Assembly (NCBI RefSeq): GCF_001636845.1
Contig: NZ_LITT01000001.1
Location: forward strand, 62,001-126,000
Reading direction: 5' to 3'
Length of the DNA stretch: 64,000 nucleotides
From: Clostridium ljungdahlii
GTDB lineage: Bacteria; Bacillota; Clostridia; Clostridiales; Clostridiaceae
Each line of letters begins with the position of its first letter. Within the stretch, counting starts at the first letter, position 1. The position numbers and the translations under genes are program-made. Positions 8,887 to 25,484 of this stretch are shown piece by piece. The notes below the pieces were generated by a model. The model was not told the origin of the DNA. It searched no databases and was given only the letters and a program-made list of their open reading frames with translations.

Positions 8887-8904
8887 GTAGATAAAATGAA
8901 GGTT
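8887..8904 (-). promoter_or_regulatory. Island operator upstream of the YHS gene
   Basis: On the minus strand: CCTTCAT-N4-TCTACAT, an 11-bp-period direct repeat with one change from consensus, followed 10 bp later by TATATA (8876-8871). There is no other -35. It is the weakest of the eleven sites. Confidence 0.65.
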
Positions 8905-9008
8905 TATTAACTTACCTTAAAATTTATTTACTAGGCTTTTCAGCTGTGAAAATAAGGCTGGTTAAGTCAAGAATTGAGAAGGTTTGAGATAAATTTGATA
9001 AGATATTA

Positions 9009-9317
9009 TTAAGCTGTGATACCTTTAACTCCAAATATAGGTTTCATAAAAGGCATCTTTACTTTCTGATAAATATTTATATCTCCAGCAATCTTTAGAT
9101 CTTTTAAAATAAATACTTTAATATCAGTATATTTATAAATATCATATAACTCTTTGTCTATTATTTCAGTTTCAAATAAAGCCCTAATTTTAACAGTTTT
9201 AACATGATTATGAATGTTGCCACAATCACAATCTATTTCTGTATTTTTAATTAATACTACAAAGCATAGACTTTTACTCTGAGCATAATTCAAAGCCTTG
9301 TTATCAATTTTTATCAT
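9009..9317 (-). CDS. Small protein, possible CC/Se-motif (HesB-like) family
   Basis: 102 residues with no signal peptide. The layout - KALNYAQSK near the start, a CDCGNIHNH cluster near residue 30, then a strand-rich tail ending FMKPIFGVKGI - recalls the HesB/IscA-like CC/Se-motif family, in which a CCG or UCG motif sits at this place; here it is CDCG. That match is from memory and uncertain. An island operator is 112 bp upstream (9429-9446), so it is expressed with the redox cargo. It could be a metal- or thiol-active small protein. Confidence 0.5.
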   Translation of the reverse strand: MIKIDNKALNYAQSKSLCFVVLIKNTEIDCDCGNIHNHVKTVKIRALFETEIIDKELYDIYKYTDIKVFILKDLKIAGDINIYQKVKMPFMKPIFGVKGITA

Positions 9318-9428
9318 AACATATCATCCCCAAACTAATTTTATAATGAATTAATACCTCTTATTTATGCTGTTATAAATAATAAAAACTACTGAGGTAA
9401 TAACTTAATCATATTTTACAAAATTAAT

Positions 9429-9446
9429 ATGTAGATTTTATGAAGA
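9429..9446 (-). promoter_or_regulatory. Island operator upstream of the 9009-9317 gene
   Basis: Minus strand: TCTTCAT-AAAA-TCTACAT, then TAAAAT exactly 10 bp on (9418-9413). Confidence 0.8.
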
Positions 9447-9481
9447 AAATGCTATCAGAAAAATGTTTTCTGACAGCATTT
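9447..9481 (-). terminator. Terminator of the polyferredoxin operon
   Basis: A 16-base stem (9447-9462 with 9466-9481) with one mismatch and a 3-base loop, four bases after the polyferredoxin stop. Read on the minus strand it is followed by TTTTCTTC. It directly abuts the next operator, so two transcription units are packed end to end. Confidence 0.8.
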
Positions 9482-9484
9482 AAG

Positions 9485-10879
9485 TTACATACGCATTGCC
9501 ATTGGAAGCATGAATAGTACTATGTTTATAATACCTAGTATTACTATTAAAACACTATATACTATTGAAGTCCCTAAGGACTTATTATTCTTACCACCAT
9601 AATTACTTTTAGCAAGTCTATATGCAGTATATATTGAACCTATAGTTCCAAGAACAATTAAAAGATACTGAAGAGATTGTATTGTTGGCGTATCCAAAAT
9701 TGCTGTTGAACCACTCATTTCCACACCAAATAGCCCCATAAAAGTATAGAAGATTGATTTTCCTTCTGCTAGTAGGTGGAAAAGGTTATGAGCTATATGG
9801 GCAGCCATATCTAGTGGGATGATAGCATATCCAAACTTAGCAAAGTTTTGTTTCACAGAATCTCCGTTAAACTTTTTAGCAATTAACCCTGTTGTTGATA
9901 ACATTATTATAGGGATTAACATAGCTATAGTAAAGGTTATAGTGAAGGTTACATAGTAGCTGTTTGTACCAGTAGTTCTTTCAAGCCAATTTAATATAGG
10001 TTCCCATATATTAAGCATAGTGATGTTCTGCACAAATACTATACCCATAATTACAACAGCAAGGAAAGACTCTTCAAGCTTAGGTTTACGGATAAACCAC
10101 AATTCTCTAGTAGGTACACGTCTTGATATTTTAATAGAGTTATTTGGACAACTCTTTACACAGTTTCCGCAGAAATTACACTCTGCGTTAGTATCCATAA
10201 TTCTCGGAAATTCAAACATAGGACATCCTGCTGCTTTATTACTTCCTTTGTAACAAGCGGCAACATTACATTTAGCACATTTTTCAGGAGTAGCTCTAAG
10301 TTCCATCATACCTGCTCTAGTATAGTTAGCAGACAATCCTCCTAAAAAACAAACATATCTACACCAAGTTCTACGTTCAAATATAGCACCGGAAGCAATT
10401 ACACCTAGAGTAATCAATAAGAGAAGGTTACCGGAACCCCTTGGTGATTCAACAACACCAAAAATATGATCGCTCCACGTAATTAAGATGAATATTGCAT
10501 CAATAATCCAAATTTCATATTTTTTTAGAAATTTAGGTACAGGATGATTATTACCAACAAATTTTTGAACTAGATCATTAAGTGTCCCAAAAGGACAGAT
10601 TGTACACCAAAATCTACCTAACAATAATATTATAATTGGCAGTAGAGGCCACCATAATACCCAAGTTGCAGCGGTACCAAAGTTATCATGGGCACTTGTA
10701 GAACTGAATAAAAGTTGATAAACTATAAATGCAAATACTATTGCTACTGGCCATTGAAAAACACCAGGATACCATTTACTTTTCATAAAGCTTGCAAATT
10801 TTTTGTTGTCTAAAAGGTTTTTATCATCTGATGAGTATGCTTTTTCTTCATCAATTTTAGTTTTCTTTTTTTCTGACAC
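9485..10879 (-). CDS. Membrane polyferredoxin, NapH/NosR/CcoG-like
   Basis: 464 residues with about 9-10 membrane segments. The first pair flanks WCTICPFGTLNDLVQKF (a Cx3CP motif), a second CRYVCFLGGL motif follows, then a soluble pair of ferredoxin-like clusters (CAKCNVAACYKGSNKAAGC, about residues 201-219, and CNFCGNCVKSCPNNSI, about 234-249), then four or five more membrane segments. This order matches NapH/NosR-C/CcoG-type polyferredoxins, which carry electrons between quinols and other redox centres at the membrane. No flavin-binding NosR N-domain is present. It is 18 bp downstream of a FixH/YtkA-like gene, probably as one unit. Whether it oxidises menaquinol is inference. Confidence 0.82.
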   Translation of the reverse strand: MSEKKKTKIDEEKAYSSDDKNLLDNKKFASFMKSKWYPGVFQWPVAIVFAFIVYQLLFSSTSAHDNFGTAATWVLWWPLLPIIILLLGRFWCTICPFGTLNDLVQKFVGNNHPVPKFLKKYEIWIIDAIFILITWSDHIFGVVESPRGSGNLLLLITLGVIASGAIFERRTWCRYVCFLGGLSANYTRAGMMELRATPEKCAKCNVAACYKGSNKAAGCPMFEFPRIMDTNAECNFCGNCVKSCPNNSIKISRRVPTRELWFIRKPKLEESFLAVVIMGIVFVQNITMLNIWEPILNWLERTTGTNSYYVTFTITFTIAMLIPIIMLSTTGLIAKKFNGDSVKQNFAKFGYAIIPLDMAAHIAHNLFHLLAEGKSIFYTFMGLFGVEMSGSTAILDTPTIQSLQYLLIVLGTIGSIYTAYRLAKSNYGGKNNKSLGTSIVYSVLIVILGIINIVLFMLPMAMRM

Positions 10880-10897
10880 AAAATATTACCTCACTTT

Positions 10898-11434: not shown

Positions 11435-11526
11435 TTTAAATACCTTCCTTTACTATTAGTTTAATATTTTTGCCTTTTGGGATTGGCAATAGCAACAAAA
11501 TTATGTCACCATTTTTATACTAGTCA

Positions 11527-12351
11527 CTATAATGCATTCTCTACCTTAGGCCTATAAAAATCTAAAACATAATCTACTAACATTATTAAGCTTTGCTTGT
11601 ATGCTGAGTTTTTTAAATTCTCAATAGAAGCTTTGGCATTATATGCAAATTCAAATCCCTCTTCAATAGTTATATTTTTCATTGCAACGGGATCCTCATC
11701 GATATAATCATCCAGTATTTGATATGCTATACCAAGGTTTTCACCGTATTTAGAAAGCATATTAGACTCTTCGTAAGTGGCATAAGCTATGCTGGCACCA
11801 AGCCTACAACAAGCACTCATAAAAGATGCTGTTTTTCCTAAAATGATTTTAAAATAGGTTTCACGATCTGGAGAGGGATTGTTAGCATTTAATATTTCAG
11901 CTACAGACATTGATTCAGTAACTCTGCCCATTACCTGCGCAAATTCTCTTGGCAGAGTATCTGAGAAAATAGTAAAGGCTCTTGAGTACAAAGCATCACC
12001 AGCAAGTACTGCTATTTTATTTCCAAAAGTCTTATTTAAGGTTTTCTGACCACGTCTTAGTAAGTCACCATCTATGATATCATCATGAATTAGACTAGCG
12101 CTGTGAATAAGCTCTAGGCCTATTGATAACTGAATTAAATTGTGTTTTGCAGATGAAGTAAGCTCGTTACTAATAGCACCTGCAGATAAAAATGTTAATG
12201 TAGGTCTTAGCCTTTTACCTGGAATTGAAAAAAAATAGGTAAAAATATCTTGTGTAACAGTAGAATCTAATTTTGATGCAATATTTTGTAACTCTGACTC
12301 AAGTTGATTAAGTTCTTTTATTATTGGAATTGAAATTCCATCGAAGCTCAT
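11527..12351 (-). CDS. Polyprenyl diphosphate synthase
   Basis: A trans-type prenyl chain elongating enzyme that would make the side chain for menaquinone. The first Asp-rich motif is LIHDDIIDGD (DDxxD), followed by LLRRGQ; the second is DDYIDED, also DDxxD. At 274 residues it is shorter than the usual 310-330. The context with menA and menG makes a menaquinone side chain the natural product; chain length cannot be read by eye. A strong island operator and -10 lie 90 bp upstream. The start has AGGAGGTG before ATG 12351. Confidence 0.88.
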   Translation of the reverse strand: MSFDGISIPIIKELNQLESELQNIASKLDSTVTQDIFTYFFSIPGKRLRPTLTFLSAGAISNELTSSAKHNLIQLSIGLELIHSASLIHDDIIDGDLLRRGQKTLNKTFGNKIAVLAGDALYSRAFTIFSDTLPREFAQVMGRVTESMSVAEILNANNPSPDRETYFKIILGKTASFMSACCRLGASIAYATYEESNMLSKYGENLGIAYQILDDYIDEDPVAMKNITIEEGFEFAYNAKASIENLKNSAYKQSLIMLVDYVLDFYRPKVENAL

Positions 12352-12442: not shown

Positions 12443-12460
12443 GTGAAGAAAATATGAAGA
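12443..12460 (-). promoter_or_regulatory. Island operator upstream of the prenyl synthase operon
   Basis: Minus strand: TCTTCAT-ATTT-TCTTCAC, with TATAAT exactly 10 bp downstream (12432-12427). It is one of the clearest copies. Confidence 0.88.
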
Positions 12461-12824: not shown

Positions 12825-13565
12825 CTATTCCTTGGTTCCGTAATGAATAGAAGCAATTCCAAGTGTTAGAGATACATATCCAGTATATTTAAATCCGGCA
12901 TTATCAAATGAATGTTTTAACATATCTTTGGACATAAAGTATTTTACAGAGTCTCTAAGATAAGTATATGCATTTTTGTCTTTTGTACCTAAATACCCAA
13001 CAGTAGGTAAAATAGAGTTTAAATATATTGAGTGCAGTTCTCTGAAAATGGGCATTTCCGGATTGGATAATTCTAAACAAACAAGTTTTCCACCAGGCCT
13101 TAAAACTCTATACATTTCCGACAATGCTCTATTTTTATCCTTAACATTTCTAAGACCAAATGCAATTGTTACACAGTGAAAACTGTTATCTTCAAAAGGT
13201 AATTCTAAAACGTTACCTTTTATTAATTTAAAATTATAAGCCTTTATGTTTTGGTTAAGTCTTTTATATCCAACATCAATCATTTCTTGATTGAAATCAA
13301 GTCCTATAACTTCAGTATTTTTTCCTACTTTTCTACAGGCATAATTAATCATCTGTCCTGTACCACAGCATAAATCTAAAACTTTGCTATCGACTTTTAG
13401 ATCACATACTCTTATAGCTTTTTTTCTCCAGAGTTTATCTATATTAAAGGTTAGAATTGAATTCAATCTATCATACTTTTCTGCGATAGATGAGAAAATG
13501 TTTTGTACTTCTAAGGAATTGCTCACCATGTCCAGTATACCTTCTTTCTTAATTAAATTTATCAT
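12825..13565 (-). CDS. menG: Demethylmenaquinone methyltransferase MenG/UbiE
   Basis: SAM-dependent methyltransferase of the UbiE family that turns demethylmenaquinone into menaquinone. Visible motifs: VLDLCCGTGQM (SAM motif I), VIGLDFNQEMIDVG, LELPFEDNSFHCVTIAFGLRNV (family signature) and EMYRVLRPGGKLVCLELSNP. The AYTYLRDSVKYF tail is also typical of UbiE. An internal ATG near 13529 (MVSNSLEVQ) could be the true start. It is probably co-transcribed from the operator at 14004-14021 through the 95-residue gene upstream. Confidence 0.92.
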   Translation of the reverse strand: MINLIKKEGILDMVSNSLEVQNIFSSIAEKYDRLNSILTFNIDKLWRKKAIRVCDLKVDSKVLDLCCGTGQMINYACRKVGKNTEVIGLDFNQEMIDVGYKRLNQNIKAYNFKLIKGNVLELPFEDNSFHCVTIAFGLRNVKDKNRALSEMYRVLRPGGKLVCLELSNPEMPIFRELHSIYLNSILPTVGYLGTKDKNAYTYLRDSVKYFMSKDMLKHSFDNAGFKYTGYVSLTLGIASIHYGTKE

Positions 13566-13580
13566 ATTCTACAATTATTT

Positions 13581-13643: not shown

Positions 13644-13931
13644 CTATACGACTTCTTTACTATCAGTGCTAGTTTTTTTAGTAGTACAGCAGCTTCCTTT
13701 TTTATTATTACCCATCATCATTGGCATCATAAAGATCATCATTATAGGACATAAAAATGGTATTATTCTTCCAACTATACTGCCAGCACTAGGATTAAAT
13801 CTTGATATTATTGGTAATAATTCTATGATAATTATAGGTAATCCACAGCAGATAGCCATATGCAGCATATGCTTTAAAGGGCTATGTTTATGAGTTCCTT
13901 GTTTTTCTTTGTTATCTTCATGACAATTCAT
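13644..13931 (-). CDS. Small Cys/His/Met-rich membrane protein
   Basis: 95 residues: a His-rich N-terminus (MNCHEDNKEKQGTHKHSPLKH), two hydrophobic helices with CCGLP in the first and CPIMMIFMMPMMM in the second, then a GSCCTTKK tail. Paired cysteines and Met/His runs suggest soft-metal (Cu/Ag) or heme binding, but I recognise no named family. An island operator is 73 bp upstream of its start. It sits between menA/CPBP and menG. The start ATG 13931 has GGAGG before it. Confidence 0.65.
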   Translation of the reverse strand: MNCHEDNKEKQGTHKHSPLKHMLHMAICCGLPIIIIELLPIISRFNPSAGSIVGRIIPFLCPIMMIFMMPMMMGNNKKGSCCTTKKTSTDSKEVV

Positions 13932-14003: not shown

Positions 14004-14021
14004 ATAAAGAAGTTGTGAAGA
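14004..14021 (-). promoter_or_regulatory. Island operator upstream of the 95-residue gene and menG
   Basis: Minus strand: TCTTCAC-AACT-TCTTTAT, then TATAAT exactly 10 bp on (13993-13988). Confidence 0.85.
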
Positions 14022-14079: not shown

Positions 14080-14700
14080 TTACATTAGTGGAAGCAAAAC
14101 GAATATTGTTAAATCCCAAATAGCGTGGGAGATAATTACTGGTATCAAACTCTTCTCTTTTTTATAAAGCCATCCCCAGAATAATCCACATACCAAAGCT
14201 GCTATAATTAGCATAAAGTTGCCTGTAACAATATGCACAACTGCATATAATAAAACTGAAAATAAATATCCTTTGTTTTCTCCAAATTCTTTATCTAAGG
14301 TATTTTGTATAAAGCCTCTCCAGTATAGTTCTTCACCTGGACCAATTATAAAAAATAGTAATAAACTTATCAGTGTTAGATTAACATTTGATTTATTACT
14401 ATAAACTGATGAAATTTGAGCATCTTTGAATGAAAACAAATATCCTGATATAATATTTCCTACATAAAATATTCCGTACAAGGCTATTGCTGAGAGTATT
14501 CCAATTAAAATATGTCTCGGTTTTATTTTCCCAAAGTGGAATATATCTCTATCAGCAAAGAATGCCATTAATATTAATAGTAATATCGATCCACTCATTT
14601 CTATCCAAAAGTTAAAGGGCTTTACAACAAACATTAGATACCATAAGATTGCTGCTGCAAACAATGTAAAAGTTAAATATTTATAGTTTTTATTGTTCAA
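14080..14700 (-). CDS. CPBP-family intramembrane metalloprotease
   Basis: 206 residues with about six or seven membrane segments. The conserved motifs are GPGEELYWRGFIQ (EExxxR), a histidine in HIVTGNFML and SHAIWDLTIFVLLP. This is the CPBP/Abi group, related to Rce1 prenyl-protein proteases; bacterial members have mixed or unknown roles. It follows menA by 15 bp and is clearly in its operon. Why a prenyl-quinone operon carries it is unclear; a prenyl-substrate link is only a guess. Confidence 0.85.
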   Translation of the reverse strand: MNNKNYKYLTFTLFAAAILWYLMFVVKPFNFWIEMSGSILLLILMAFFADRDIFHFGKIKPRHILIGILSAIALYGIFYVGNIISGYLFSFKDAQISSVYSNKSNVNLTLISLLLFFIIGPGEELYWRGFIQNTLDKEFGENKGYLFSVLLYAVVHIVTGNFMLIIAALVCGLFWGWLYKKEKSLIPVIISHAIWDLTIFVLLPLM

Positions 14701-14715: not shown

Positions 14716-15615
14716 TTATCTTATATAAGAAAATAGTATTGAAATAATAAGGATAACTCCAAATTGTCCCTGTAGTTTTGCTGTTTCCTGATCAAGGGTA
14801 GTGAGTTTAGAATTAGACCTATTAGAAATACGCAATTTATTGATATTTTTCAATGCTGTTGGCGATGTAATTAGACAAAGTAAACTCCAAATAGGGGTAA
14901 CTCTGTAATAAGTCATAGCTAAAACAGAAATATAGGATAAATAAACTAAACCATAATAAATATAGCAGGCATTAGTTCTTCCAGTCATTATAGATAGAGT
15001 TTTTATTCCAGCTTTTTTATCATGATAAATATCTCTAATATCATTTGCATGTAAAATAGCTGTGGTTAAAAGTCCAATTGGTATAGATAACAGAAGTACG
15101 TTTATATTGATTTTCTGAACTTGAACAAAGTATCCACCGAGCATCATTAGGGGCCCAAAGATCATAAATATTAAAGGGGCACCTAAACCTCTGTATTTTA
15201 GCATAAGTGGTTTTCCGGTATAAAAATAACCACTTAAAGCTCCTATAGTACCTAGAATTAGAATAAAACCCCCTTTTTGAAAAGCTAAAAATAGTCCTAG
15301 TATACATCCTAAGGCTAAAACTAATCGTCCTCCTATAAGGAGTTCTTCAGAAGTCAATAAATTTTCAAAAATAATACCACTAGAAGATCCAGATTCCTTG
15401 GTATCAACTTTGTTAATAAAATCATCATAGTCATTAATCATATTTGATGAGGCTTGCAAAAGTACAGCAGCTAATAAGGAAATCAGGTAGTATATAAACT
15501 GAAATTTTGATTCCTTTGCAGCAAATATAGCACCTACTGTAACTGGAATTATAGAAGCAGTTAAAGAAAAAGGCCTTGCAGCCATTAACCATATTTTAAA
15601 TTTTTGTTTCATCAC
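14716..15615 (-). CDS. menA: 1,4-Dihydroxy-2-naphthoate polyprenyltransferase MenA (UbiA family)
   Basis: Integral membrane prenyltransferase joining the polyprenyl chain to DHNA to give demethylmenaquinone. Both Asp-rich UbiA motifs are present: NMINDYDDFINKVD (about residues 61-74) and HANDIRDIYHDKKAG (about 189-203). 299 residues and about eight or nine membrane segments are standard. With menG and the prenyl synthase it forms a complete DHNA-to-menaquinone set, but no DHNA-forming genes occur here. It is driven by the operator at 15713-15730, divergent from the two-component system. Confidence 0.88.
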   Translation of the reverse strand: MMKQKFKIWLMAARPFSLTASIIPVTVGAIFAAKESKFQFIYYLISLLAAVLLQASSNMINDYDDFINKVDTKESGSSSGIIFENLLTSEELLIGGRLVLALGCILGLFLAFQKGGFILILGTIGALSGYFYTGKPLMLKYRGLGAPLIFMIFGPLMMLGGYFVQVQKININVLLLSIPIGLLTTAILHANDIRDIYHDKKAGIKTLSIMTGRTNACYIYYGLVYLSYISVLAMTYYRVTPIWSLLCLITSPTALKNINKLRISNRSNSKLTTLDQETAKLQGQFGVILIISILFSYIR

Positions 15616-15712: not shown

Positions 15713-15730
15713 GTGAAGATTTTATAAAGA
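15713..15730 (-). promoter_or_regulatory. Island operator, menA side of the divergent promoter
   Basis: Minus strand: TCTTTAT-AAAA-TCTTCAC, then TATAGT exactly 10 bp downstream (15702-15697). Confidence 0.87.
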
Positions 15731-15796: not shown

Positions 15797-15814
15797 TCTA
15801 CATATAATCTTCAT
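15797..15814 (+). promoter_or_regulatory. Island operator, autoregulatory site of the two-component system
   Basis: Plus strand: TCTACAT-ATAA-TCTTCAT, then TATTAT 10 bp on (15825-15830). It lies 67 bp from the divergent menA site, so one regulator can drive both arms. Confidence 0.87.
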
Positions 15815-15870: not shown

Positions 15871-16554
15871 ATGAATAAAATTTTGATAGTAGAAGATGAG
15901 AAAAAGGTATCTAATATTCAAAAGGCATATTTAGAAAAGGAAGGTTATCAAGTATATACATCAACAACTGGACTAAAAGCTTTAGAACTCTTTGATTCAA
16001 TTGAATTTAGCTTAATAATACTTGATCTAATGCTGCCGGATATTCAAGGAGAGGAAATATGTAAAATTATAAGAGATAAGTCTGATGTGCATATATTTAT
16101 GGTTACTGCTAAATCTGCATTAGAAGACAGAATAGAGGGGCTTAATACAGGTGCAGATGAGTATTTAGTTAAACCTTTTAGTCCAAGAGAACTGGTTGTC
16201 AGAGTTAATTCTTTATTCAGAAGGTTAGGGGCAAATAACATTTCAGTTTTATCTTTAGATAATGGAAATATCCAAATTTATAAAGATAGTAGAATTGTAA
16301 AAGTTAGAGGACAAGAAATATCCCTTACCCCTAATGAATTTGATATTTTATATGTTCTTGCAATAAATAAAGGAAAAGTTCTTACTAGAGAACAATTAAT
16401 AGATAGGGTTTTTGGTATGGATTTTGAGGGGTTTGACAGGACTGTAGATGTTCATATAAAAAATATAAGGAAAAAAATAGAAGAAGACAGTAAAAGTCCT
16501 AAGTATATTTTGACAGTTACTAGACTAGGATATAAGTTTGGTGATGACAATTGA
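15871..16554 (+). CDS. OmpR-family response regulator of the island
   Basis: Receiver domain with the phospho-acceptor Asp52 (LIILDLMLPD), Thr and Lys of the switch (FMVTAKS, YLVKPFSPREL), then a winged-helix DNA-binding domain (ISLTPNEFDILYVLA, RTVDVHIKNIRKKI, ILTVTRLGYKF). I chose ATG 15871, which has GAGGTGAG before it; an upstream in-frame ATG at 15829 lies on the -10 region. OmpR-type regulators bind direct repeats with about 11-bp period overlapping the -35, which is the form of the eleven operators here. That this protein binds them is a well-motivated inference. Confidence 0.92.
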   Translation: MNKILIVEDEKKVSNIQKAYLEKEGYQVYTSTTGLKALELFDSIEFSLIILDLMLPDIQGEEICKIIRDKSDVHIFMVTAKSALEDRIEGLNTGADEYLVKPFSPRELVVRVNSLFRRLGANNISVLSLDNGNIQIYKDSRIVKVRGQEISLTPNEFDILYVLAINKGKVLTREQLIDRVFGMDFEGFDRTVDVHIKNIRKKIEEDSKSPKYILTVTRLGYKFGDDN

Positions 16555-17921
16555 TGTATAGTATTAGAAAAAAGCTAAGCATTATAATTTTAGCTTGTTC
16601 TATATTAGCTGTATTATTAACTGCTATCTTTGTAAATATCACAATAAATAATAAATTTAGCGAATATATGGTGAATAACCAGAATAAAAGAAATGATAGA
16701 ATAGTACAGTATTTCCAAGAGGTTTATAAAAGAGATAAAAAATGGACAGCAGCTTCAGGAAGTGAAATGAAGCATGAGGCATATATGAGCAATTACTGCA
16801 TAACTCTTTTAGATTCAAATAAAAAGTTGGTTTGGATGATGGATCCAAATGATATTAAAGAAAAAGAACATTTTAAATCCTTAGATGGTAAAAGTGGAGT
16901 TTTTACTACAAATAGTTTCCCAATTAAATATAATGGCCATGTTGTTGGATATGTACAGATAGGGCAATATTCTTCAGTGTTATTATCTGCTGATGATGTA
17001 AATTTTAAATTATCCATTAACGAAGGAATTATTGCTAGTATTTTTTTAAGTCTTCTTATTGTAATAATTATCAGCCTGTATATTTCAAAACAGTTTTCAG
17101 TACCAATTAGAGAAGTATCAAATGTATCAGTAAAACTATCTAATGGAGATTATAATTCTAAAACTAATGTAGATACAGACATATTAGAGATTGAAAAGCT
17201 TAAAAGCAGTATAAATACGTTAGGAGAAAAACTTAATCATCAGGATTTACTAAGAAAAAGGCTAGTCTCTGATATATCGCATGAAATAAGAACTCCACTT
17301 AATATTCTTCAAAATAACTTAGAAGCCATGATTGACGGAATTTTTCCAGTAAATACGGAACAGTTAATAGGTTTAAATGATGAGGTTATCAGGTTTGGAA
17401 AACTTTTAAATAACCTAAATGCTCTAAAAGAATTTGAAGCAGATACAGTTTCTATTAATAGAGAAGAGGTTCGGTTAGATGAACTGCTATCTTCAGTATG
17501 TGATGATTTTTCAATTGCATTGAAAGAAAAAAATATTGATCTGGCTTATAATATAAGACCAAACAAAGATTATAGTATAATTGTAGATCCAGACAAATTA
17601 AAACAAGTATTTATTAATCTCTTATCTAATGCAGTAAAATTCTCAGATTGTGGAGGAAAAGTTTGGATTAACTTAACTAGAGATAAAGAAAATATTATTG
17701 TTAGCATAAGAGATACTGGAATTGGAATTAGTAAGAAAGACTTACCATTTATATTTGAAAGACTTTATAGAGGGGATAAGAGCAGAAATAAAATTGAAGG
17801 AAGTGGAATCGGATTAACTATAGTAAAGGATATTTTAACTCTCCATTCAGCTTCTATTGAAGCTCAAAGTGAAGTAGGTAAAGGATCCATATTTACTATA
17901 CGATTTAGAAATAATGTTTAG
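16554..17921 (+). CDS. Sensor histidine kinase of the island
   Basis: 455 residues: membrane segment (about 9-27), external sensor domain of about 130 residues, second membrane segment (about 158-178), HAMP linker, HisKA with His243 in DISHEIRTPLNIL, and an ATPase domain with NLLSNAVKFSD, DTGIGI and GSGIGLTIV. The start codon overlaps the regulator stop (TGATG at 16552-16556), so the pair is translationally coupled. The ligand is unknown. The sensor domain has no cysteine or His cluster, so direct metal sensing is not evident. Confidence 0.92.
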   Translation: MYSIRKKLSIIILACSILAVLLTAIFVNITINNKFSEYMVNNQNKRNDRIVQYFQEVYKRDKKWTAASGSEMKHEAYMSNYCITLLDSNKKLVWMMDPNDIKEKEHFKSLDGKSGVFTTNSFPIKYNGHVVGYVQIGQYSSVLLSADDVNFKLSINEGIIASIFLSLLIVIIISLYISKQFSVPIREVSNVSVKLSNGDYNSKTNVDTDILEIEKLKSSINTLGEKLNHQDLLRKRLVSDISHEIRTPLNILQNNLEAMIDGIFPVNTEQLIGLNDEVIRFGKLLNNLNALKEFEADTVSINREEVRLDELLSSVCDDFSIALKEKNIDLAYNIRPNKDYSIIVDPDKLKQVFINLLSNAVKFSDCGGKVWINLTRDKENIIVSIRDTGIGISKKDLPFIFERLYRGDKSRNKIEGSGIGLTIVKDILTLHSASIEAQSEVGKGSIFTIRFRNNV

Positions 17922-17984: not shown

Positions 17985-18428
17985 ATGGCAGTAACAACAT
18001 TTAAGGCAACAACAAGACGAAAGAAAGGTCTTGCAGTTACAGGAGGAGCAAGGGGGTTTAATGTAGATATTGACGAACCAGAAAGCTTAGGTGGAAGTAA
18101 CACTGGAATGAATCCGGTTGAATTAGTTCTTTGCGCTTTAGGTGGATGTCAAACAATTCTTGCGTCATCTTTTGCTGAAAAAATGAGAATAAATCTCGAG
18201 GATTTTTGGATAGAGTTAGAAGGAGACTTGGATCCAGACGGATTTATGGGATTATCAGATGTGAGACCGGGATACCAGAGTATAAGATATAATATGCATA
18301 TAAAGAGTGATGCTTCAGAAGAAAAAATTAAGAAATTTGTTGAATTCATTGAAAAAAGATGCCCAGTAGGAGATACAATAGGAAATGCCGTTAAGCTAGA
18401 AAAGGCGAAGATTACAATAGAGAAGTAA
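17985..18428 (+). CDS. OsmC-family protein
   Basis: 147 residues with the OsmC/YhfA fold features: GFNVDIDEPESLGG, GMNPVELVLCALGGCQT (cysteines 50 and 55) and KRCPVGDTIGNAV (Cys126). Cys55 and Cys126 are at the positions of the peroxidatic pair in OsmC/Ohr enzymes, so thiol peroxidase or redox activity is possible. It is 64 bp after the kinase with no operator in the gap and a terminator after it, so it is probably the third gene of the two-component operon. Confidence 0.87.
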   Translation: MAVTTFKATTRRKKGLAVTGGARGFNVDIDEPESLGGSNTGMNPVELVLCALGGCQTILASSFAEKMRINLEDFWIELEGDLDPDGFMGLSDVRPGYQSIRYNMHIKSDASEEKIKKFVEFIEKRCPVGDTIGNAVKLEKAKITIEK

Positions 18429-18610: not shown

Positions 18611-18857
18611 TCAGTTGGAATCTTTCGAATTACCCCATTTAACAGGAATGCCTTTCTTTACATACAGTACACTAGGTGTATACCCATTTCCATCTGCAGT
18701 CATATTTACTACCTGAACTTCCATCCTTTAAAATAGCTTTAGTGCTATTTGCCGCAGAAGCAGCAAGGGATTGGTTAGTGCCAGGTAAAAGAGAAGCTAT
18801 AGACGAAACAACATTTATTCCAGCTAAAGATAGTCCTCTATTACCCATAGTTAACAA
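18611..18857 (-). pseudogene. 3' remnant of a SafE-cupredoxin gene
   Basis: One frame reads MGNRGLSLAGINVVSS, like the last membrane helix of TauE/SafE proteins. It continues to ILKDG, where a one-base frameshift moves the reading to VQVVNMTADGNGYTPSVLYV and KKGIPVKW, the start of a cupredoxin domain, then a stop at 18611. It is clearly broken and truncated. The matching 5' end of the same kind of gene (HMA domain plus SafE start) lies at 21194-21433 on the same strand, so both look like halves of one lost copper-handling gene separated by the genes at 18.95-21.2 kb. Confidence 0.68.
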
Positions 18858-18878: not shown

Positions 18879-18896
18879 TCTCCATATTTTCTACAC
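18879..18896 (+). promoter_or_regulatory. Island operator upstream of the 123-residue secreted protein
   Basis: Plus strand: TCTCCAT-ATTT-TCTACAC, then TATAAT exactly 10 bp downstream (18907-18912). Confidence 0.83.
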
Positions 18897-18952: not shown

Positions 18953-19324
18953 ATGAAAAAGAGATTAATTGTTTTGATGACAACAGCAATATTAGTTATA
19001 GGAGGAATTTCAGTAGCTTATGCACAGGCAAAAGGCTATGTAAATTCAAATAAAATGAATGATAATGTAAGCTACCGAAATACAAGCAATTTTAATAACA
19101 TGGTAAAGATTATGAAAGAAAATGGCTTTAGCGGTGCAGCAGAAGCAATGGAAGATAAGGATTTTGATTCTATGAATAAATTTATGAGTAACTTAACAGA
19201 TAAAGACTATAAGAAGATGATGGATATAATGAAGAACAATGGATATGCTCCAATGACAAATATGATGGAATCTGTTAGTAGACAAGACATGGTAAATGTT
19301 CACAATTCTATGATGGGAAGGTAA
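18953..19324 (+). CDS. Secreted Met-rich repeat protein of unknown function
   Basis: 123 residues with a signal peptide (cleavage near AYAQA, residue 24). The mature part holds two related helical repeats of about 30-40 residues: NMVKIMKENGFSGAAEAMED and KKMMDIMKNNGYAPMTNMME, each followed by a shorter Met-containing helix. Methionine is strikingly frequent (about a dozen in 100 residues), as in periplasmic copper-binding proteins. I do not recognise a named family. It has its own island operator and terminator, so it is a single-gene unit of the regulon. Confidence 0.7.
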   Translation: MKKRLIVLMTTAILVIGGISVAYAQAKGYVNSNKMNDNVSYRNTSNFNNMVKIMKENGFSGAAEAMEDKDFDSMNKFMSNLTDKDYKKMMDIMKNNGYAPMTNMMESVSRQDMVNVHNSMMGR

Positions 19325-19397: not shown

Positions 19398-19415
19398 TCT
19401 TTATAAAATTTACAT
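19398..19415 (+). promoter_or_regulatory. Island operator upstream of the chemoreceptor
   Basis: Plus strand: TCTTTAT-AAAA-TTTACAT, then TATAAC at 19425-19430 (9 bp on). Confidence 0.78.
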
Positions 19416-19491
19416 AGTGGTTTATATAACATAAGTATACAATTGCTAAAAATCAGAAAAAATTTATCTTAAGTAATTGGGGGGAGTACAG

Positions 19492-21204
19492 ATGAAAATA
19501 TTCAAAAACTTAAAAATTGCACAAAAACTTATAAGCTGTTTTTTATTAATATCACTTCTCATGACAGCAGTGGGTACTATAGGAATAGTACAAATAAAAA
19601 AGATAAATACAAATTCAACTTCAATGTATGAAGATAACTTACTACATATCAGAAAAGTAGGGGCTTTGAAAGAAAATTTTTTGCAGATACATTCAGATTT
19701 AGTATCTCTTTTAACTACAAAAGATTCATCTAAGAAGAAGCAAATAATAGATGAGGTAAATAAACTAACAGAAGAGGATATGGCTATATCAAAAGAATTT
19801 AAAGATACTAATGCAACAGGAATGGAAAAGGACTTATTAGATAAGTTTAATAAAAATCATAATGATTACATGATGGCACGTGAAAATTATATGAAATTAA
19901 TAGATTCAAATAAATATGCTGAAGCTCAGATGGCTTTTGATATGGTATTGCAAGCAAGACAGAAGACCTTTGATGGTATCAATGAACTTATAAATCTAAA
20001 TTTAAAAGAAGCACAGGAGGCTGACAAAACTAATAATTCAACATATAAGACAGCCTTTAATATCATGATTTCCATTGTAATACTTGGCTTTATAATTGCA
20101 ATACTTCTTGGAATATTAATATCAACATCTTTATCAAAAGAAATAAATAAGGTTCTTATATTTGCAGATGCTCTGGGAAGTGGCGATTTAACTAAAAGAA
20201 TTGATATTTATGCAAAGGATGAAATTGGTAAGCTTTCTGAAGCTTTAAATAAAGCGGTTGAAAATACTCGTAGCTTAATATCTACAATAATTTCAAGTTC
20301 TATTGACATGACTAGTTCTAGTGAAGAGATTTCTGGAACTATAGAAAAAATTTCTGCAAAAATGACTAATATTAATGCAGCAACTAAAGAAATATCGGCT
20401 GGAACAGAGAACTTAAGCGCAACTTCAGAGGAAGTAAATGCTTCAATCCAAGAGATAACATCAAATACCACTGAACTTTCAAATAAAGCTAAAGATGGTG
20501 ATAGAGCATCAGATGAGGTACAGGCTCGTGCAACTGAAATAAAGAATAAAGGACTAAAGGCTATTGATATCTCTCAAAAAATATATAAAGAAAAGCAAAT
20601 TAATATAGTTAAGGCTATAAAAGATGGAAAAGTTGTTGAGGAAATCAAGGTTATGGCAGATTCTATAGCAAATATAGCTTCTCAAACTAATCTTTTAGCG
20701 CTTAATGCTGCCATTGAATCGGCAAGAGCAGGGGAAATGGGGAGAGGATTTGCAGTGGTTGCAGATGAAATACGTCAGCTTGCAGAGCAGTCAACGAGCA
20801 ATGTTTCAAGCATTCAAAATGTTATAACACAGGTAAATGAAGCTTTTAATAATTTATCTAACAATACACAAGATATACTAGCTTTTATTGACAATAATGT
20901 AAATCCTGATTATGAACTGTTTTTAGAAACTGCAGAAAAATATGAAGAAGATGCTGTTTTCATAAAGGTTATGTCAGAAGAAATAGCAAATGGCACAACA
21001 CAAATATTAAGCTCCATAGAACAAACTAGCACAGCTATTGAGAATGTGTCAAGAACAGCTGAGCAATCTGCGTCAAGTTCAGACGGCATATTAAATAGCA
21101 TCGATGAAACAAGTTATGCGATTGAAGAAGTAGCTAAATCAGCTCAAAGACAATCGAAATTAGCTGAGGAGTTAAATGGTTTAGTACAGAAGTTTAAGAT
21201 ATAA
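19492..21204 (+). CDS. Methyl-accepting chemotaxis protein
   Basis: 570 residues: membrane segment (about 13-33), a four-helix-bundle sensor domain of about 150 residues, second membrane segment (about 190-212), HAMP, and a long signalling coiled coil whose tip reads [21 protein letters not shown] chose ATG 19492 because GGGGGGAG sits just before it. It carries an island operator, so the receptor is made together with the redox cargo, suggesting the cell steers toward or away from a condition tied to that metabolism. No chemotaxis kinase genes are nearby. Confidence 0.9.
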
Positions 21205-21433
21205 GTTTTAAATATTTTACACAGTGTATAGAGGTGAGCACTCCAACTGCAAAAAGTACAAAATAGGTTGCTCCTTTAAGCATATTATTCATATCGAAAC
21301 CACCAGTAGAATTACCTATAAGAATAATGGAAACTGCTACCATTACTAACTTTTTTAATGTTCTTTCCATAGTTTTTTCACAAGATGTACAAGTCATATT
21401 ATATACTTTTAGTCTTATATTTTTTATACTCAT
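21194..21433 (-). pseudogene. 5' remnant of an HMA-SafE copper-handling gene
   Basis: The 79-residue frame starts with an HMA metal-binding motif (KVYNMTCTSCEKTMERTLKKL), then jumps without the rest of the HMA fold to a membrane helix and FAVGVLTSIHC, the beginning of a TauE/SafE domain, and ends. It has an internal deletion and a lost 3' part. An intact-looking island operator remains at 21541-21558. See the 3' remnant at 18611-18857. Confidence 0.68.
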
Positions 21434-21540: not shown

Positions 21541-21558
21541 GTGTAGAAGTTATAAAGA
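21541..21558 (-). promoter_or_regulatory. Island operator upstream of the HMA-SafE remnant
   Basis: Minus strand: TCTTTAT-AACT-TCTACAC, then TATATT exactly 10 bp on (21530-21525). Confidence 0.8.
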
Positions 21559-21619: not shown

Positions 21620-21637
21620 TCTTCATTTTTTCTTCAT
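21620..21637 (+). promoter_or_regulatory. Island operator and promoter of fixABCX
   Basis: Plus strand: two perfect TCTTCAT copies 11 bp apart, then TATAAT exactly 10 bp downstream (21648-21653). It is the best-matching copy in the window. Confidence 0.92.
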
Positions 21638-21722: not shown

Positions 21723-22532
21723 TTGCATACTTTAGTTTGTGTGAAACAAGTACCGGATACTACAGAAATTAAAATGGATCCAAAAACAAATACTTTAGAT
21801 AGATCAAGCGCACCTACAATTATTAATCCTTATGATGCACATGCAGTAGAAGAAGCTCTGAAAATTAAAAATAAGTTTGGAGGTAAGGTTTCTATTATAT
21901 CAATGGGGCCACCACAAGCAGAGGAAGTTATTAAAAAGTGTATTGAAATGGGAGCTGATGAAGGGTATCTTCTTTCAGATAGAGCCTTTGCTGGTTCTGA
22001 TACTCTAGCTACAAGTTATATACTTTCAACGGGAATAAAAAAAATAATGGAGAAAGAGGCTATTGATTTAGTGTTTTGTGGAAAGCAAGCTATAGATGGA
22101 GATACAGCTCAGGTTGGACCAGGTATTGCATCAAGACTTGAAATACCTCAGTTAACCTATGTGGAAAAAATAAAGTTTTTAAATTTAAAAAATAATACTG
22201 TGATAATACACAGAAAAATTGATAATGGCTACGAAGTTGTTGAATCAAAACTTCCATGCTTAATCACAGTAGAAAAAGATATAAATGATTTAAGTTTTTC
22301 TCCACTATCAAATATTATTAGAGCAGCACGTTATAAAGCAACAGTTTGGGGAATTAATGATTTTGAAGCAGATATGAGTCAATTAGGGCTTAAAGGATCT
22401 CCAACTTCAGTTCGACGTATATTTCCACCACCTCAAAGGTCCGGTGGGGAGTTACTAAAGGGCAACATTGATGAGGTGGTAAAACAACTTACAGATAGCT
22501 TGAAAGGAGGAATAGTTAGATGGCAGTTATAA
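21723..22532 (+). CDS. fixA: FixA / electron-transfer flavoprotein beta subunit
   Basis: 269 residues; begins HTLVCVKQVPDTTEIKMD, with the ETF-beta signature region CGKQAIDGDTAQVGPGIA and a C-terminal motif RSGGELL. It starts at TTG 21723 with GAAGGAG 10 bp upstream; no better start exists. With FixB it forms the flavin heterodimer. In FixABCX complexes NADH oxidation at the bifurcating FAD sends one electron to ferredoxin and one to quinone through FixC. First gene of a tightly packed four-gene operon, with fixB overlapping by 13 bases. Confidence 0.92.
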   Translation: MHTLVCVKQVPDTTEIKMDPKTNTLDRSSAPTIINPYDAHAVEEALKIKNKFGGKVSIISMGPPQAEEVIKKCIEMGADEGYLLSDRAFAGSDTLATSYILSTGIKKIMEKEAIDLVFCGKQAIDGDTAQVGPGIASRLEIPQLTYVEKIKFLNLKNNTVIIHRKIDNGYEVVESKLPCLITVEKDINDLSFSPLSNIIRAARYKATVWGINDFEADMSQLGLKGSPTSVRRIFPPPQRSGGELLKGNIDEVVKQLTDSLKGGIVRWQL

Positions 22533-23809
22533 TTACAGATTCTTGTATTGGATGTGAATCCTGTATCCCAATTTGCCCCTTCGATGCATTGGGGATTAAT
22601 GGAGAAGGTAAATTAGTAGCTAGTAAAGAAAAGTGTACTGAATGTGGAAAGTGTGTAGCGGTGTGTCCAGTTTCTGCATTAAATATTTCAGGTGGCAAAA
22701 AGAAAGCCAATGATATCTTGAAGAATGAGACTAAGGAAGGTAGTAAAGCTTCAAAGTCAGAAAAACCTACTGGAGATGTATGGGTCTTTGCAGAACAATT
22801 GGAAGGTAAGCTATCCTCTGTTACTCTTGAACTTATTGGTGCTGCAAGAAAGCTCGCTTCAAAATTAGAGGTAAAGGTATGTGCAGTTTTATTAGGTGAT
22901 AAAGTTGAATCTATAATACCTGAGCTTTTTGCATATGGTGCAGATACCATATATGTTATAGATGATGAAGTATTTCATTTCTATAGAGCAGAGACTTATA
23001 GCAAAGCTTTCTGCTATTTAATAAATAAGTATAGGTCAGAAATATTGTTAATGGGAGCAACAACTACAGGGAGAGATCTAGCTGGTGCCGTTGCAACTGC
23101 AATGAAAACCGGGCTTACAGCAGACTGTACCGGACTAGATATTGACTTAGAAAAAAGAGTACTACTTGCCAGTCGCCCAGCCTTCGGAGGAAATATAATG
23201 GCCACTATAGTATGTGAAAGACATCGTCCTCAAATGGCTACTGTGCGCCCAAGAGTTATGCCAATGCCAGAACCTGAGGTAAATAAAACAGGCGCTATAA
23301 TTAGAGAGAATTTTGAAATTGAAGAAAAATCCCTTAGAACTTGGGTGCTTGAAGTTATTAAGGAACAGTCAGAAAATGCGAAGCTTGAAGATGCTAAAAT
23401 TATAGTTTGTGGTGGACGCGGTGTGCAGAATCAAGAAGGATTTAAGCTGCTTCAGGAATTAGCAAAAGTAATTGGTGGGGTAGTAGCTGGTAGTCGTGGT
23501 GCTGTGGAGAAAGGTTTAGTGGATCATAAACGTCAAGTTGGGCAGACCGGTCAAACCGTGTCTCCAAAGCTATATTTTGCTATAGGAATTTCTGGTGCAA
23601 TACAGCATACTGTTGGAATACAGGGAGCTGAAACAATAGTTTGTATAAATACAGATTCTGAATGTGAAATGATGAAGTTGGCTACTTATGGAATTCAAGG
23701 AGATGTTTTTGAAGTATTACCTAAATTAATTAGTAGTTTTAAAGAAGAACTTACAGAAGTTTCAAAGATAAACAATAAAGGTTTGTGTAAGATTGCGAAG
23801 GAGGTTTAA
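22520..23809 (+). CDS. fixB: FixB / electron-transfer flavoprotein alpha subunit with ferredoxin domain
   Basis: 429 residues. An N-terminal two-cluster ferredoxin domain (CIGCESCIPICPFDAL and CTECGKCVAVCPVSAL, residues about 9-55), which ordinary ETF-alpha lacks, is followed by a linker and the ETF-alpha body with the FAD motif GSRGAVEKGLVDHKRQVGQT, KLYFAIGISGAIQH and INTDSE. The extra clusters are common in clostridial bifurcating ETFs and would pass low-potential electrons. ATG 22520 has AAAGGAGG before it. Confidence 0.92.
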   Translation: MAVIITDSCIGCESCIPICPFDALGINGEGKLVASKEKCTECGKCVAVCPVSALNISGGKKKANDILKNETKEGSKASKSEKPTGDVWVFAEQLEGKLSSVTLELIGAARKLASKLEVKVCAVLLGDKVESIIPELFAYGADTIYVIDDEVFHFYRAETYSKAFCYLINKYRSEILLMGATTTGRDLAGAVATAMKTGLTADCTGLDIDLEKRVLLASRPAFGGNIMATIVCERHRPQMATVRPRVMPMPEPEVNKTGAIIRENFEIEEKSLRTWVLEVIKEQSENAKLEDAKIIVCGGRGVQNQEGFKLLQELAKVIGGVVAGSRGAVEKGLVDHKRQVGQTGQTVSPKLYFAIGISGAIQHTVGIQGAETIVCINTDSECEMMKLATYGIQGDVFEVLPKLISSFKEELTEVSKINNKGLCKIAKEV

Positions 23810-23812
23810 AGA

Positions 23813-25108
23813 GTGACTGAAAAATTTGATGTTATTGTTGTAGGGGCTGGGGTTTCCGGGCTTGCAGCAGCATATGTAATGGCAAAAGAAGGTCTTAAAG
23901 TTATTGTAATTGAAAAAGGTAAATACCCTGGCTCAAAAAATGTTATGGGTGGTGTATTATATCGCCACATGATGGACGAGATTATACCAGAGTTTTGGAA
24001 GGAAGCACCTCTTGAGCGTCCTATTGTTGAGCAAAATTTTTGGCTATTAGGCAAAGAATCTGCAGCAAAAACAGGTTACAGGGGGATAGAATGGTCAAAG
24101 CCTCCTTATAATAATTTCACAGTCTTTAGAGGCAAGTTTGATCAGTGGTTTTCAAAAAAATGCGTGGAAGCTGGGGCATTAATTGTCAACGAGACTGTTG
24201 TAAAAGAATGCATTGTAGAAAACAATAAGGTTGTTGGAGTTAGAACAGATAGACCCGATGGAGACCTTTATGCTGATGTAGTTGTTCTTGCAGATGGTGT
24301 TAATTCATTACTAGCCAAAAGCCTAGGCTTCCATAAAGAATGGCGTAAGGATCAGGTAGCTCTTGCAGCTATGGAGGAATTAAAACTGCCTTCAGATAAA
24401 ATTGAAGATAGATTTAACTTGGACAAAGGTATGGGAGCAACCATAGAAATGTTTGGTGATGGAACATTGGGAATGGTGGGTACAGCCTTTATCTATACGA
24501 ACAAGGAACATATATCTATTGGATGTGGAGCTTTGCTTTCACAGATGAGTGAGAGAAATGTTAAGCCTTATGAGTTATTAGAATATATCAAGCAGCATCC
24601 TGTTATTAAACCTTTAATTGCAGGAGGTGAAGCAAGTGAATATTATGCACACTTAATTCCAGAAGGAGGGTATAATAGTATACCTAAATTAGTAGGGGAT
24701 GGAGTACTTGTAATTGGGGATGCAGCACAGCTTGTTAATGGTATTCATAGAGAAGGATCAAATCTAGGAATGACCTCTGGACGTTTTGCTGCTGAGACTA
24801 TTATACAGGCTAAGAAACTAGGCAAATTCAATGAACAAGCACTTTCACATTATCAGGAGCTGCTTAAAGAAAGTTATGTTATGAAAGATCTAAAAAAATA
24901 TAAGAATGCATCTACAACTATGGAAGAAAATCCGAAGTTCTTTAATCATTATATACCAGCAGCTAACAAGGTAATGAGTGAAATGTTTACTGTAGATGGA
25001 GTATCAAAGAGAGACAAGCAAAAGTTAGCTATTAAACATATGGCTGGTGGAAAATCTATATTAAGTATGGGTATGGATGGATTTAAAATATGGAGGGCGA
25101 TGAAATAA
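23813..25108 (+). CDS. fixC: FixC / ETF:quinone oxidoreductase-like flavoprotein
   Basis: 431 residues: N-terminal FAD Rossmann motif VVGAGVSGLAAAYVMAKEG, KYPGSKNVMGGVLY, then LVIGDAAQLVNGIHREGSNL (second FAD contact) and a membrane-associating C-terminal half typical of FixC/ETF-QO. It takes electrons from FixAB and reduces quinone. It starts at GTG 23813 with GAAGGAGG upstream. The need for a quinone acceptor fits the menaquinone genes in the same island. Confidence 0.9.
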   Translation: MTEKFDVIVVGAGVSGLAAAYVMAKEGLKVIVIEKGKYPGSKNVMGGVLYRHMMDEIIPEFWKEAPLERPIVEQNFWLLGKESAAKTGYRGIEWSKPPYNNFTVFRGKFDQWFSKKCVEAGALIVNETVVKECIVENNKVVGVRTDRPDGDLYADVVVLADGVNSLLAKSLGFHKEWRKDQVALAAMEELKLPSDKIEDRFNLDKGMGATIEMFGDGTLGMVGTAFIYTNKEHISIGCGALLSQMSERNVKPYELLEYIKQHPVIKPLIAGGEASEYYAHLIPEGGYNSIPKLVGDGVLVIGDAAQLVNGIHREGSNLGMTSGRFAAETIIQAKKLGKFNEQALSHYQELLKESYVMKDLKKYKNASTTMEENPKFFNHYIPAANKVMSEMFTVDGVSKRDKQKLAIKHMAGGKSILSMGMDGFKIWRAMK

Positions 25109-25401
25109 TGGAAGATACAAAATTAAAAGTAAATATTGATGATAAGCTGTATTTAAATACTTATAATGTAGACACTCTTTCCCACTTAGCTATAAAGGAT
25201 CAGAAGATATGTGAGACATGTGAGGAAAAGACCTGTACTTTCATTTGCCCTGCTCGTGTTTATGAATGTAAGAATGGACATGTTACTGTTGGTTATGAAG
25301 GTTGTCTTGAATGTGGGGCATGTCGTATAGCTTGTTCTCATGATAATATTGATTGGAACTTCCCAAGGGGAGGATTTGGTATACAGTTTCGAATGGCATA
25401 G
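25108..25401 (+). CDS. fixX: FixX ferredoxin-like protein
   Basis: 97 residues with the FixX cysteine pattern CETCEEKTCTFICPARVY and CLECGACRIACSHDNIDW, ending PRGGFGIQFRMA. FixX partners FixC as its iron-sulphur subunit. I chose ATG 25108, which overlaps the fixC stop (TAATG) and has GGAGGG before it; an in-frame ATG at 25090 inside fixC is less likely. Last gene of the operon, followed by a terminator. Confidence 0.92.
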   Translation: MEDTKLKVNIDDKLYLNTYNVDTLSHLAIKDQKICETCEEKTCTFICPARVYECKNGHVTVGYEGCLECGACRIACSHDNIDWNFPRGGFGIQFRMA

Positions 25402-25414
25402 TATATTGAATTAT

Positions 25415-25451
25415 AAAAGGTTTTGGCAAATTTTATTTGCTGAGACCTTTT
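25415..25451 (+). terminator. Terminator of fixABCX
   Basis: Arms 25415-25431 and 25435-25451 pair over 13 of 17 positions with a central 4-base mismatch, followed by TAGTATTAC. Confidence 0.65.
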
Positions 25452-25466
25452 AGTATTACATTTGTA

Positions 25467-25484
25467 TCTATATAAAATCTTTAT
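25467..25484 (+). promoter_or_regulatory. Island operator upstream of the DUF2892 remnant
   Basis: Plus strand: TCTATAT-AAAA-TCTTTAT, then TATTAT at 25494-25499 (9 bp on). The site survives although the gene it served is broken. The rest of 25402-25694 is AT-rich with no gene. Confidence 0.75.

Follow-up and report, generated by a model that had tools for sequence, protein, structure and literature searches.

In a 64,000-nucleotide stretch of the genome of Clostridium ljungdahlii (contig NZ_LITT01000001.1, positions 62,001 to 126,000; the whole of it is hereafter the window), a gene island carries the same promoter-like direct repeat eleven times, on both strands, which raises the question of whether its genes form one regulon and, if so, which protein reads the repeats. 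An original prediction described the repeat as TCTTCAT-N4-TCTTCAT followed 9 or 10 bp on by a -10 box without a -35 box, attributed it to class II activation by an OmpR-type regulator encoded in the island, and concluded that the island is a single-regulator module. Taken as a whole, the observation is confirmed here and the interpretation is partly supported. Judged from motif, position and gene content, the repeats are very probably binding sites of the BaeR-like response regulator encoded at 15871-16554, which together with the neighboring BaeS-like sensor kinase is predicted to activate the module in the class II manner. The regulon extends beyond a single regulator and a single island.

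Repeats with a fixed promoter geometry

All eleven repeats were found within 2 bp of where they had been placed, the only correction being that the first, given as 8887, spans 8885-8902. They are listed as half-site, spacer and half-site, followed by the best TATAAT-like hexamer and its distance after the second half-site, for which spacings of 6 to 14 bp were tried:

8885..8902, minus strand: CCTTCAT-TTTA-TCTACAT, -10 TATACT at 10 bp; upstream of a YHS protein gene
9429..9446, minus strand: TCTTCAT-AAAA-TCTACAT, -10 TAAAAT at 10 bp; upstream of the gene for a 102-aa protein
12443..12460, minus strand: TCTTCAT-ATTT-TCTTCAC, -10 TATAAT at 10 bp; upstream of the prenyl synthase, YtkA-like and NapH-like genes
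14004..14021, minus strand: TCTTCAC-AACT-TCTTTAT, -10 TATAAT at 10 bp; upstream of a 95-aa Cys/His/Met-rich protein gene and ubiE
15713..15730, minus strand: TCTTTAT-AAAA-TCTTCAC, -10 TATAGT at 10 bp; upstream of the menA-like and CPBP genes
15797..15814, plus strand: TCTACAT-ATAA-TCTTCAT, -10 TATTAT at 10 bp; upstream of the response regulator gene
18879..18896, plus strand: TCTCCAT-ATTT-TCTACAC, -10 TATAAT at 10 bp; upstream of a Met-rich 123-aa protein gene
19398..19415, plus strand, weak: TCTTTAT-AAAA-TTTACAT, TATAAC at 9 bp; upstream of a chemoreceptor gene
21541..21558, minus strand: TCTTTAT-AACT-TCTACAC, -10 TATATT at 10 bp; faces the remnant of an HMA-DsbD-cupredoxin gene
21620..21637, plus strand: TCTTCAT-TTTT-TCTTCAT, -10 TATAAT at 10 bp; upstream of fixABCX
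25467..25484, plus strand, doubtful: TCTATAT-AAAA-TCTTTAT, TATTAT at 9 bp; no gene close downstream

The pattern TCTWYAY-N4-TCTWYAY is matched in full by eight of the eleven and with one mismatch by three (8885, 18879 and 19398). The best hexamer, with five or six of six matches to TATAAT, lies 10 bp downstream in nine sites and 9 bp downstream in 19398 and 25467, as had been predicted, and no good -35 box was found at any of the eleven (best TTGACA match at the normal -35 spacing, one to four of six).

The claim that such regularity is very unlikely to arise by chance was borne out. Under a fixed rule (at most one mismatch in the repeat, TANNNT with at least four of six TATAAT matches, spacing 9-10 bp), the island holds 10 matches and the other 46.8 kb of the window none; 300 kb of control DNA from this genome, in 15 stretches, hold one, in coding DNA, and their 61,036 intergenic bases none, while 100 dinucleotide shuffles of the island intergenic DNA gave a mean of 0.03 matches and a maximum of 1. 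Scanned over the whole 4.36-Mb genome, the search motif of the original prediction gave 20 matches against 3 for the reversed pattern, and an equal density elsewhere was not seen. Sixteen of these 20 fall within two islands, the one in the window and a paralogous copy on another contig (C1:416-439 kb, seven matches) whose common proteins are 71-95% identical; a match at window 13643, which overlaps a gene and has a poor -10, is probably due to chance. Among the four matches outside the islands, three (L025-L027) lie inside opposite-strand open reading frames (ORFs) of 447-574 aa and look like chance, and the fourth (L028), with a spacing of 9, is an intergenic match close to an ORF that by eye is pdxS-like; it recurs in the congeneric genomes G006 and G008 and is perhaps a site of another regulator. 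Another conserved repeat, TATTCATATATTATTCACATCC and variants followed by TATAAT, perhaps likewise another regulator's site, was seen at G000:C65:95680 and in G003, G004, G006, G008 and G011, with one listed place per genome.

The same comparison was extended to 13 congeneric genomes, own included, split by the presence of the island's Fe-S (NapH-like) gene at E<=1e-60. The search motif outnumbers its reversed pattern by 64 to 14 in the six genomes with this gene and is not enriched in the seven without it (10 versus 21). A refined pattern (at most three mismatches), shaped on part of the collected sites themselves, gave 89 matches versus 15 for the reverse over the 13 genomes; in the own genome, 19 of its 22 matches fall in the two islands and one at a locus on contig C47 that encodes a related regulator. 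Because only one of the 13 genomes, G005, lacks a kinase match at E<=1e-60 (it has one hit of each pattern), setting kinase presence against motif presence is a weak test.

Two of these counts could be taken to favor an artefact of a 31% GC genome or of low complexity: the numbers in the island-less congeners and those for the bare repeat, which, with two mismatches allowed and no -10 demanded, is hardly enriched (235 versus 203 reversed). The latter indicates that the whole geometry carries the signal, and for the whole geometry the genome counts, the shuffles and the conservation across species leave chance a practically negligible explanation. As the origin of the island sites it is refuted by the control and shuffle counts together with an unbiased test of the geometry itself, in which half-site distances of 7-25 bp were counted in 40,769 intergenic bases (no ORF of at least 100 aa) from ten island-bearing stretches. 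Exact half-site pairs were 11 bp apart in 48 of 50 cases, a count tempered by the relatedness of the ten loci, so that the pairs are not independent events; in control intergenic DNA the figure was 0 of 4. In 39 of 44 unique exact-pair sites, picked without regard to the -10, the best TATAAT lay at exactly 10 bp. Base 19, which follows the second half-site and is outside the search pattern, is A in 42 of the 44, and base 8 is A in 35. A larger set, for which a -10 at 9 or 10 bp was demanded, comprises 78 sites (69 distinct) from 22 stretches, and 67 of the 69 have a spacing of 10. In these 67, T stands for C (core CTNTA) in 8 first and 13 second half-sites, the search having allowed C or T, and the ninth base is A in only 41 first and 22 second half-sites.

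Half-sites one helical turn apart in an 11-bp head-to-tail repeat, a site in the place of the -35 and a fixed 10 bp to the -10 are the features of a class II promoter of the OmpR/PhoB family, and the repeats have all of them, in agreement with the original prediction. The constant distance to the -10 and the lack of TTGACA would also suit a -35 element of an alternative sigma factor, but two copies offset by one turn of DNA are better explained by a tandem dimer than by a sigma region, the -10 is a housekeeping TATAAT, the sites travel with response regulator and kinase genes, and no sigma gene was recognized among the island genes scanned; this explanation is very unlikely. Repression from the same sites is a little less remote, the direction of regulation being unreadable from sequence alone, yet improbable: in the OmpR/PhoB family, a repeat that ends 10 bp upstream of the -10, without a -35, is in the activating position.

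Candidate regulators of the sites

Activation by the island's own regulator could proceed as follows. The kinase (16551-17921) would phosphorylate the response regulator (15871-16554, here RR1), two monomers of which would bind head to tail on two TCTTCATA half-sites spaced 11 bp apart. With these half-sites standing in for a -35, the bound monomers would bring sigma-A RNA polymerase to the TATAAT-like -10, 10 bp on. RR1 would thereby switch on its own operon, late menaquinone-type synthesis, FixABCX, the membrane Fe-S protein and the envelope proteins that look metal-binding.

RR1 has a receiver (PF00072) and a winged-helix domain (Trans_reg_C, PF00486), both above cut-off. Its recognition-helix pattern DRT-x-D-x-HIKN-x-R is common to BaeR (4b09) and is not that of RegX3 or MtrA in three alignments, and the form D-R-[TI]-[VI]-D-x-H-[IV]-K-N-[IL]-R is retained in 12 of 12 aligned response regulators. 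The half-site TCTTCATA(A), the consensus over 67 sites, agrees with the published BaeR consensus TCTNCANAA, with its CTNCA core, given in a passage of PMC3799227. The best named model of the kinase is BaeS, below its cut-off. A site precedes the RR1 gene in the window, as predicted, and likewise in all four other copies for which upstream DNA was retrieved (C1, G006, L035 and L037); autoregulation through site 15797 is possible.

Several points weigh against this reading. The best named model for RR1 is MtrA, with BaeR seventh and all of them below cut-off (BaeR scores 180.9 of 380 bits, and BaeS on the kinase 218.5 of 500, short of the curated cut-offs), and the best solved relatives of RR1 are RegX3 and MtrA, ahead of BaeR. 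The genome encodes four related kinases at E<=1e-60, which makes the cognate pair uncertain. In addition, one of the eleven window sites is doubtful (25467), one weak (19398), and one faces a broken gene (21541).

One alternative is that a different regulator of the same family reads the sites, be it the regulator of the C47 pair (RR3), a second regulator of the C1 island (RR2) or the cell's PhoP, RR1 being merely a target. RR3 and RR2, respectively 65% and 52% identical to RR1, lie beside such sites and share most of its recognition-helix pattern. Moreover, G004 and G011 have the same kind of sites and an island regulator that is 48% identical to RR1 and 55% to RR2; apart from relatives at 32-34%, neither genome yielded an RR1- or RR3-like kinase at E<=1e-60. 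Against this alternative, the RR1 gene lies within the cluster and has its own site in the window, C1, G006, C. magnum L035 and C. algifaecis, and no phosphate gene was recognized behind the sites, where not every ORF was scanned and several were judged by sequence start only. Control by another regulator in place of RR1 is rather unlikely. The proposal of a single-regulator module was nonetheless not supported in that form, given the second island, the four kinases and the three further regulators beside such sites. Because like sites go with a 48%-identical regulator in G004 and G011, their most likely readers are a few BaeR-like regulators of one predicted specificity, RR1 among them, rather than strictly one regulator.

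The island, its second copy and its relatives

The genes of the island in the window are as follows:

8455..8814, minus strand: Cys/His-rich YHS-domain protein
9009..9317, minus strand: 102-aa protein with a CDCG motif, no family match
9485..10879, minus strand: membrane 4Fe-4S protein, weakly NapH-like, 464 aa
10898..11434, minus strand: YtkA-like protein
11527..12351, minus strand: prenyl diphosphate synthase with both DDxxD motifs
12825..13565, minus strand: UbiE/MenG-type methyltransferase
13644..13931, minus strand: 95-aa Cys/His/Met-rich membrane protein
14080..14700, minus strand: CPBP (Rce1-like) membrane protease
14716..15615, minus strand: UbiA-family MenA-type prenyltransferase
15871..16554, plus strand: OmpR/PhoB-family response regulator (RR1) with a BaeR-like recognition helix
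16551..17921, plus strand: sensor histidine kinase, BaeS-like
17985..18428, plus strand: OsmC-like protein
18953..19324, plus strand: Met-rich (13.8%) 123-aa protein with a signal-like N-terminus (by eye)
19477..21204, plus strand: methyl-accepting chemotaxis protein
21723..25401, plus strand: fixA, fixB, fixC and fixX, a membrane electron-transfer flavoprotein system

Structure prediction gave no usable model of the 464-aa NapH-like protein (mean pLDDT 32.5), and among solved structures a sequence search found 12 matches, weak and of the ferredoxin type (best E 0.011).

Between the two islands of the genome, identity is 89% for the response regulator, 92% for the kinase, 95% for FixC, 93% for FixA, 84% for MenA, 86% for the NapH-like protein and 71% for the 102-aa protein. 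Eight named promoters are common to both copies, those of fixA, menA, the response regulator, the 95-aa protein, the prenyl synthase, the Met-rich protein (site 18879), the HMA-DsbD protein and the YHS protein; among these, the HMA-DsbD gene is broken in the window and the YHS site of C1 (409955, like window 8885) lacks its gene. The ORF behind 409955 was considered as a YHS homologue and rejected on scanning. No site was found at the 102-aa gene of C1 under the rule used. Further relatives, found via MenA, lie in C. magnum (two loci), C. muellerianum and C. algifaecis, and one distant Bacteroidales locus has no sites.

Across these loci the sites recur with the same genes. A site stands at fixA in all eight fetched copies, and at the prenyl synthase gene in eight loci, counting C. 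magnum L035, where the longest ORF begins upstream of the site; none was found at the C. algifaecis gene, and that of L034, at the stretch edge, falls outside the comparison. menA has a site in six loci; in G004 and G011 it follows the NapH-like gene and has no separate site. For the regulators, a site precedes six RR1 or RR3 genes, two RR3-type operons with the kinase first, and two RR2-like genes (G004 and G011). Sites likewise lie upstream of 102-aa, 95-aa, YHS, Met-rich, HMA-DsbD and NlpC/P60 genes. Counterparts of site 8885 precede YHS homologues in G004 and G011, and those of site 9429 precede 102-aa homologues in C. magnum L035, C. algifaecis, G011, G004, G002 and G010; in G006 the latter is retained without a nearby ORF of at least 70 aa.

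That sites precede cargo genes is true of most in the window and fails for two. Site 25467 lies just beyond the DNA shared with C1 and G006, and the next 1,040 bp contain no plus-strand ORF of at least 75 aa; for both reasons, it is probably not a regulon promoter. Site 21541 is still well preserved in front of a broken gene, remnants of which lie at 18635-18855 and 21218-21433, on either side of the Met-rich and chemoreceptor genes; the counterparts of the site in C1 and G006 precede the unbroken HMA-DsbD_2-cupredoxin gene. For the weak site 19398, the homologues in C1 and C. algifaecis show two-mismatch versions only.

The sites had been thought to lie all inside the island, which also proved too narrow. 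Outside islands they stand at a lone 102-aa gene (G002 and G010), at a small kinase-regulator unit with a 95-aa-like gene (G007 and G010) and at DUF6803 genes, identified by scanning in G003, G006 and G001 and by sequence likeness in G004, G008, G011 and the own C47 locus. A site with 9-bp spacing upstream of an amino acid permease gene in G010 (L091) is probably unrelated.

Several side observations concern the layout of the islands. In the window (5905-8400) the island lies directly downstream of a glmS-like gene (by domains); the matching G006 island is also in its vicinity, separated from it by about 10 kb of other sequence. The far edge (26507-27725) has the N-terminus of a TnsA-like endonuclease (PF08722) and an ORF without a Pfam match that, by eye, resembles part of a restriction specificity protein. 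At L093:5040-5700, G006 has only a 95-aa-like gene with a site and one orphan site between relatives of the C1 flanking genes, and it seems to have lost the second island. In G011 (L080:12608-16930) fixC is broken into two ORFs, and fixA is separated from fixB by a gene for an IS110-type transposase. In C1, C. magnum, C. muellerianum and C. algifaecis the operon includes a gene for a DoxX/DoxD-like membrane protein (C1:439976-440503), which the window copy lacks (between 11434 and 11527) and which was not seen in G006.

Quinone, FixABCX and copper, and comparison with known systems

Among the quinone enzymes, the MenA-type protein exceeds the cut-off of TIGR00751 (123.7 versus 102.15), the other MenA models remaining below theirs, and the UbiE-type protein that of NF001244 (269.8 versus 216). 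The prenyl synthase matches PF00348, and all named prenyl-synthase models are below cut-off. The late steps of menaquinone synthesis thus appear to be encoded and head-group synthesis does not: in the genome, menB and VitK2_biosynth (MqnA/D) had no match, and menD three, all below cut-off. The head group would come from outside or via an unrecognized route. The fixABCX genes, in one row, match Pfam ETF, ETF_alpha and Fer4_ETF_QO, and FixA-, FixC- and FixX-type NCBIfam models below their cut-offs. A passage of PMC8578096 lists C. autoethanogenum, C. coskatii, C. ljungdahlii and C. magnum as quinone-free, with a FixABCX called a 'Fix-like complex' that cannot have its usual function, and a passage of PMC8515935, on C. 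ljungdahlii, contains one mention of that organism's FixABCX set.

Sites in relatives suggest a link to copper. In C. magnum L034 a site with one mismatch lies 150 bp upstream of a CopA-type heavy-metal ATPase gene with a CPC motif; in G004 a site precedes a YHS-SHOCT-ATPase-HMA gene row; and in G011 genes for YHS, SHOCT, a CsoR-family protein and a CPC-motif ATPase share a strand, the SHOCT gene being followed by a gap of 576 bp. The sensors of RR2-group kinases are Met/His-rich (8-9 Met and 3-5 His in 133 residues). Because of these ATPases and sensors, copper, or copper-linked envelope or redox stress, is the likeliest signal, though tentatively so and with less certainty than the rest. It is disfavored by the sensor region of the window kinase, which is less Met/His-rich (5 Met and 3 His in 120), by the OsmC, NlpC/P60 and chemoreceptor genes, which are not copper genes, and by the lack of CopA in the window copy.

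One may speculate that the C. ljungdahlii/C. magnum group possesses an inducible quinone-dependent chain. Here a BaeR-like regulator, on a copper or envelope signal, would switch on FixABCX, a copper-associated membrane Fe-S quinol oxidoreductase and the last menaquinone steps, these starting from salvaged naphthoate as the head group. The outcome would be a conditional respiratory chain that uninduced cultures would have missed. We regard this as possible but doubtful; it is speculative because no terminal quinol oxidase was identified, which itself counts against it, COX1 being the only type sought among oxidases and reductases. A COX1-type heme-copper oxidase was dropped as a candidate, having no match in the genome.

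The class II mechanism is of a known kind; neither the regulon itself nor its link of quinone-tail synthesis, FixABCX and copper genes was found in the open-licence literature searched. Within the portion at hand, the main text of a C. autoethanogenum transcription-start paper (PMC6873888) contains none of the terms 'response regulator', 'copper', 'quinone' and 'two-component'. The work provides a motif and a candidate regulator for FixABCX genes that an acetogen energetics review, in the passage cited above, could not place (PMC8578096). Through the shared promoter type, the 'Fix-like complex' is linked with synthesis of the quinone tail and, among relatives, with copper genes, and the quinone-free status of FixABCX-bearing gas fermenters becomes testable.

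Four known systems invite comparison. The FixABCX of Azotobacter, described in a passage of PMC5861303 as a quinone-reducing electron-bifurcating complex, has four genes of families that match those here; in contrast, C. ljungdahlii, C. magnum and two others are listed as quinone-free (PMC8578096, same passage) and the genes share a promoter type with those for MenA, UbiE and the prenyl synthase. As in CopA/CsoR copper-export sets, sites precede heavy-metal ATPase genes (L034 and G004) and a CsoR-family repressor gene lies in the same G011 stretch, whereas the window copy has only the YHS and SHOCT genes and the proposed control is a two-component system. With the BaeSR system of enterobacteria the locus shares the best model of its kinase, the recognition helix of BaeR 4b09 and a half-site, TCTTCATA(A), that fits TCTNCANAA; it differs in phylum, in target genes, in scores far below the curated cut-offs, and in a strict 11-bp direct repeat at a fixed -10 distance with T for C in some half-sites. 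The Pho box of PhoB-dependent class II promoters consists of 7-bp half-sites (CTGTCAT) with a 4-bp AT-rich spacer and an 11-bp period, 10 bp from the -10 and without a -35. Unlike it, the sites described here have the half-site TCTTCATA and recognized genes that are not phosphate genes; in half-site length, spacer, period, distance to the -10 and lack of a -35, the two are the same.

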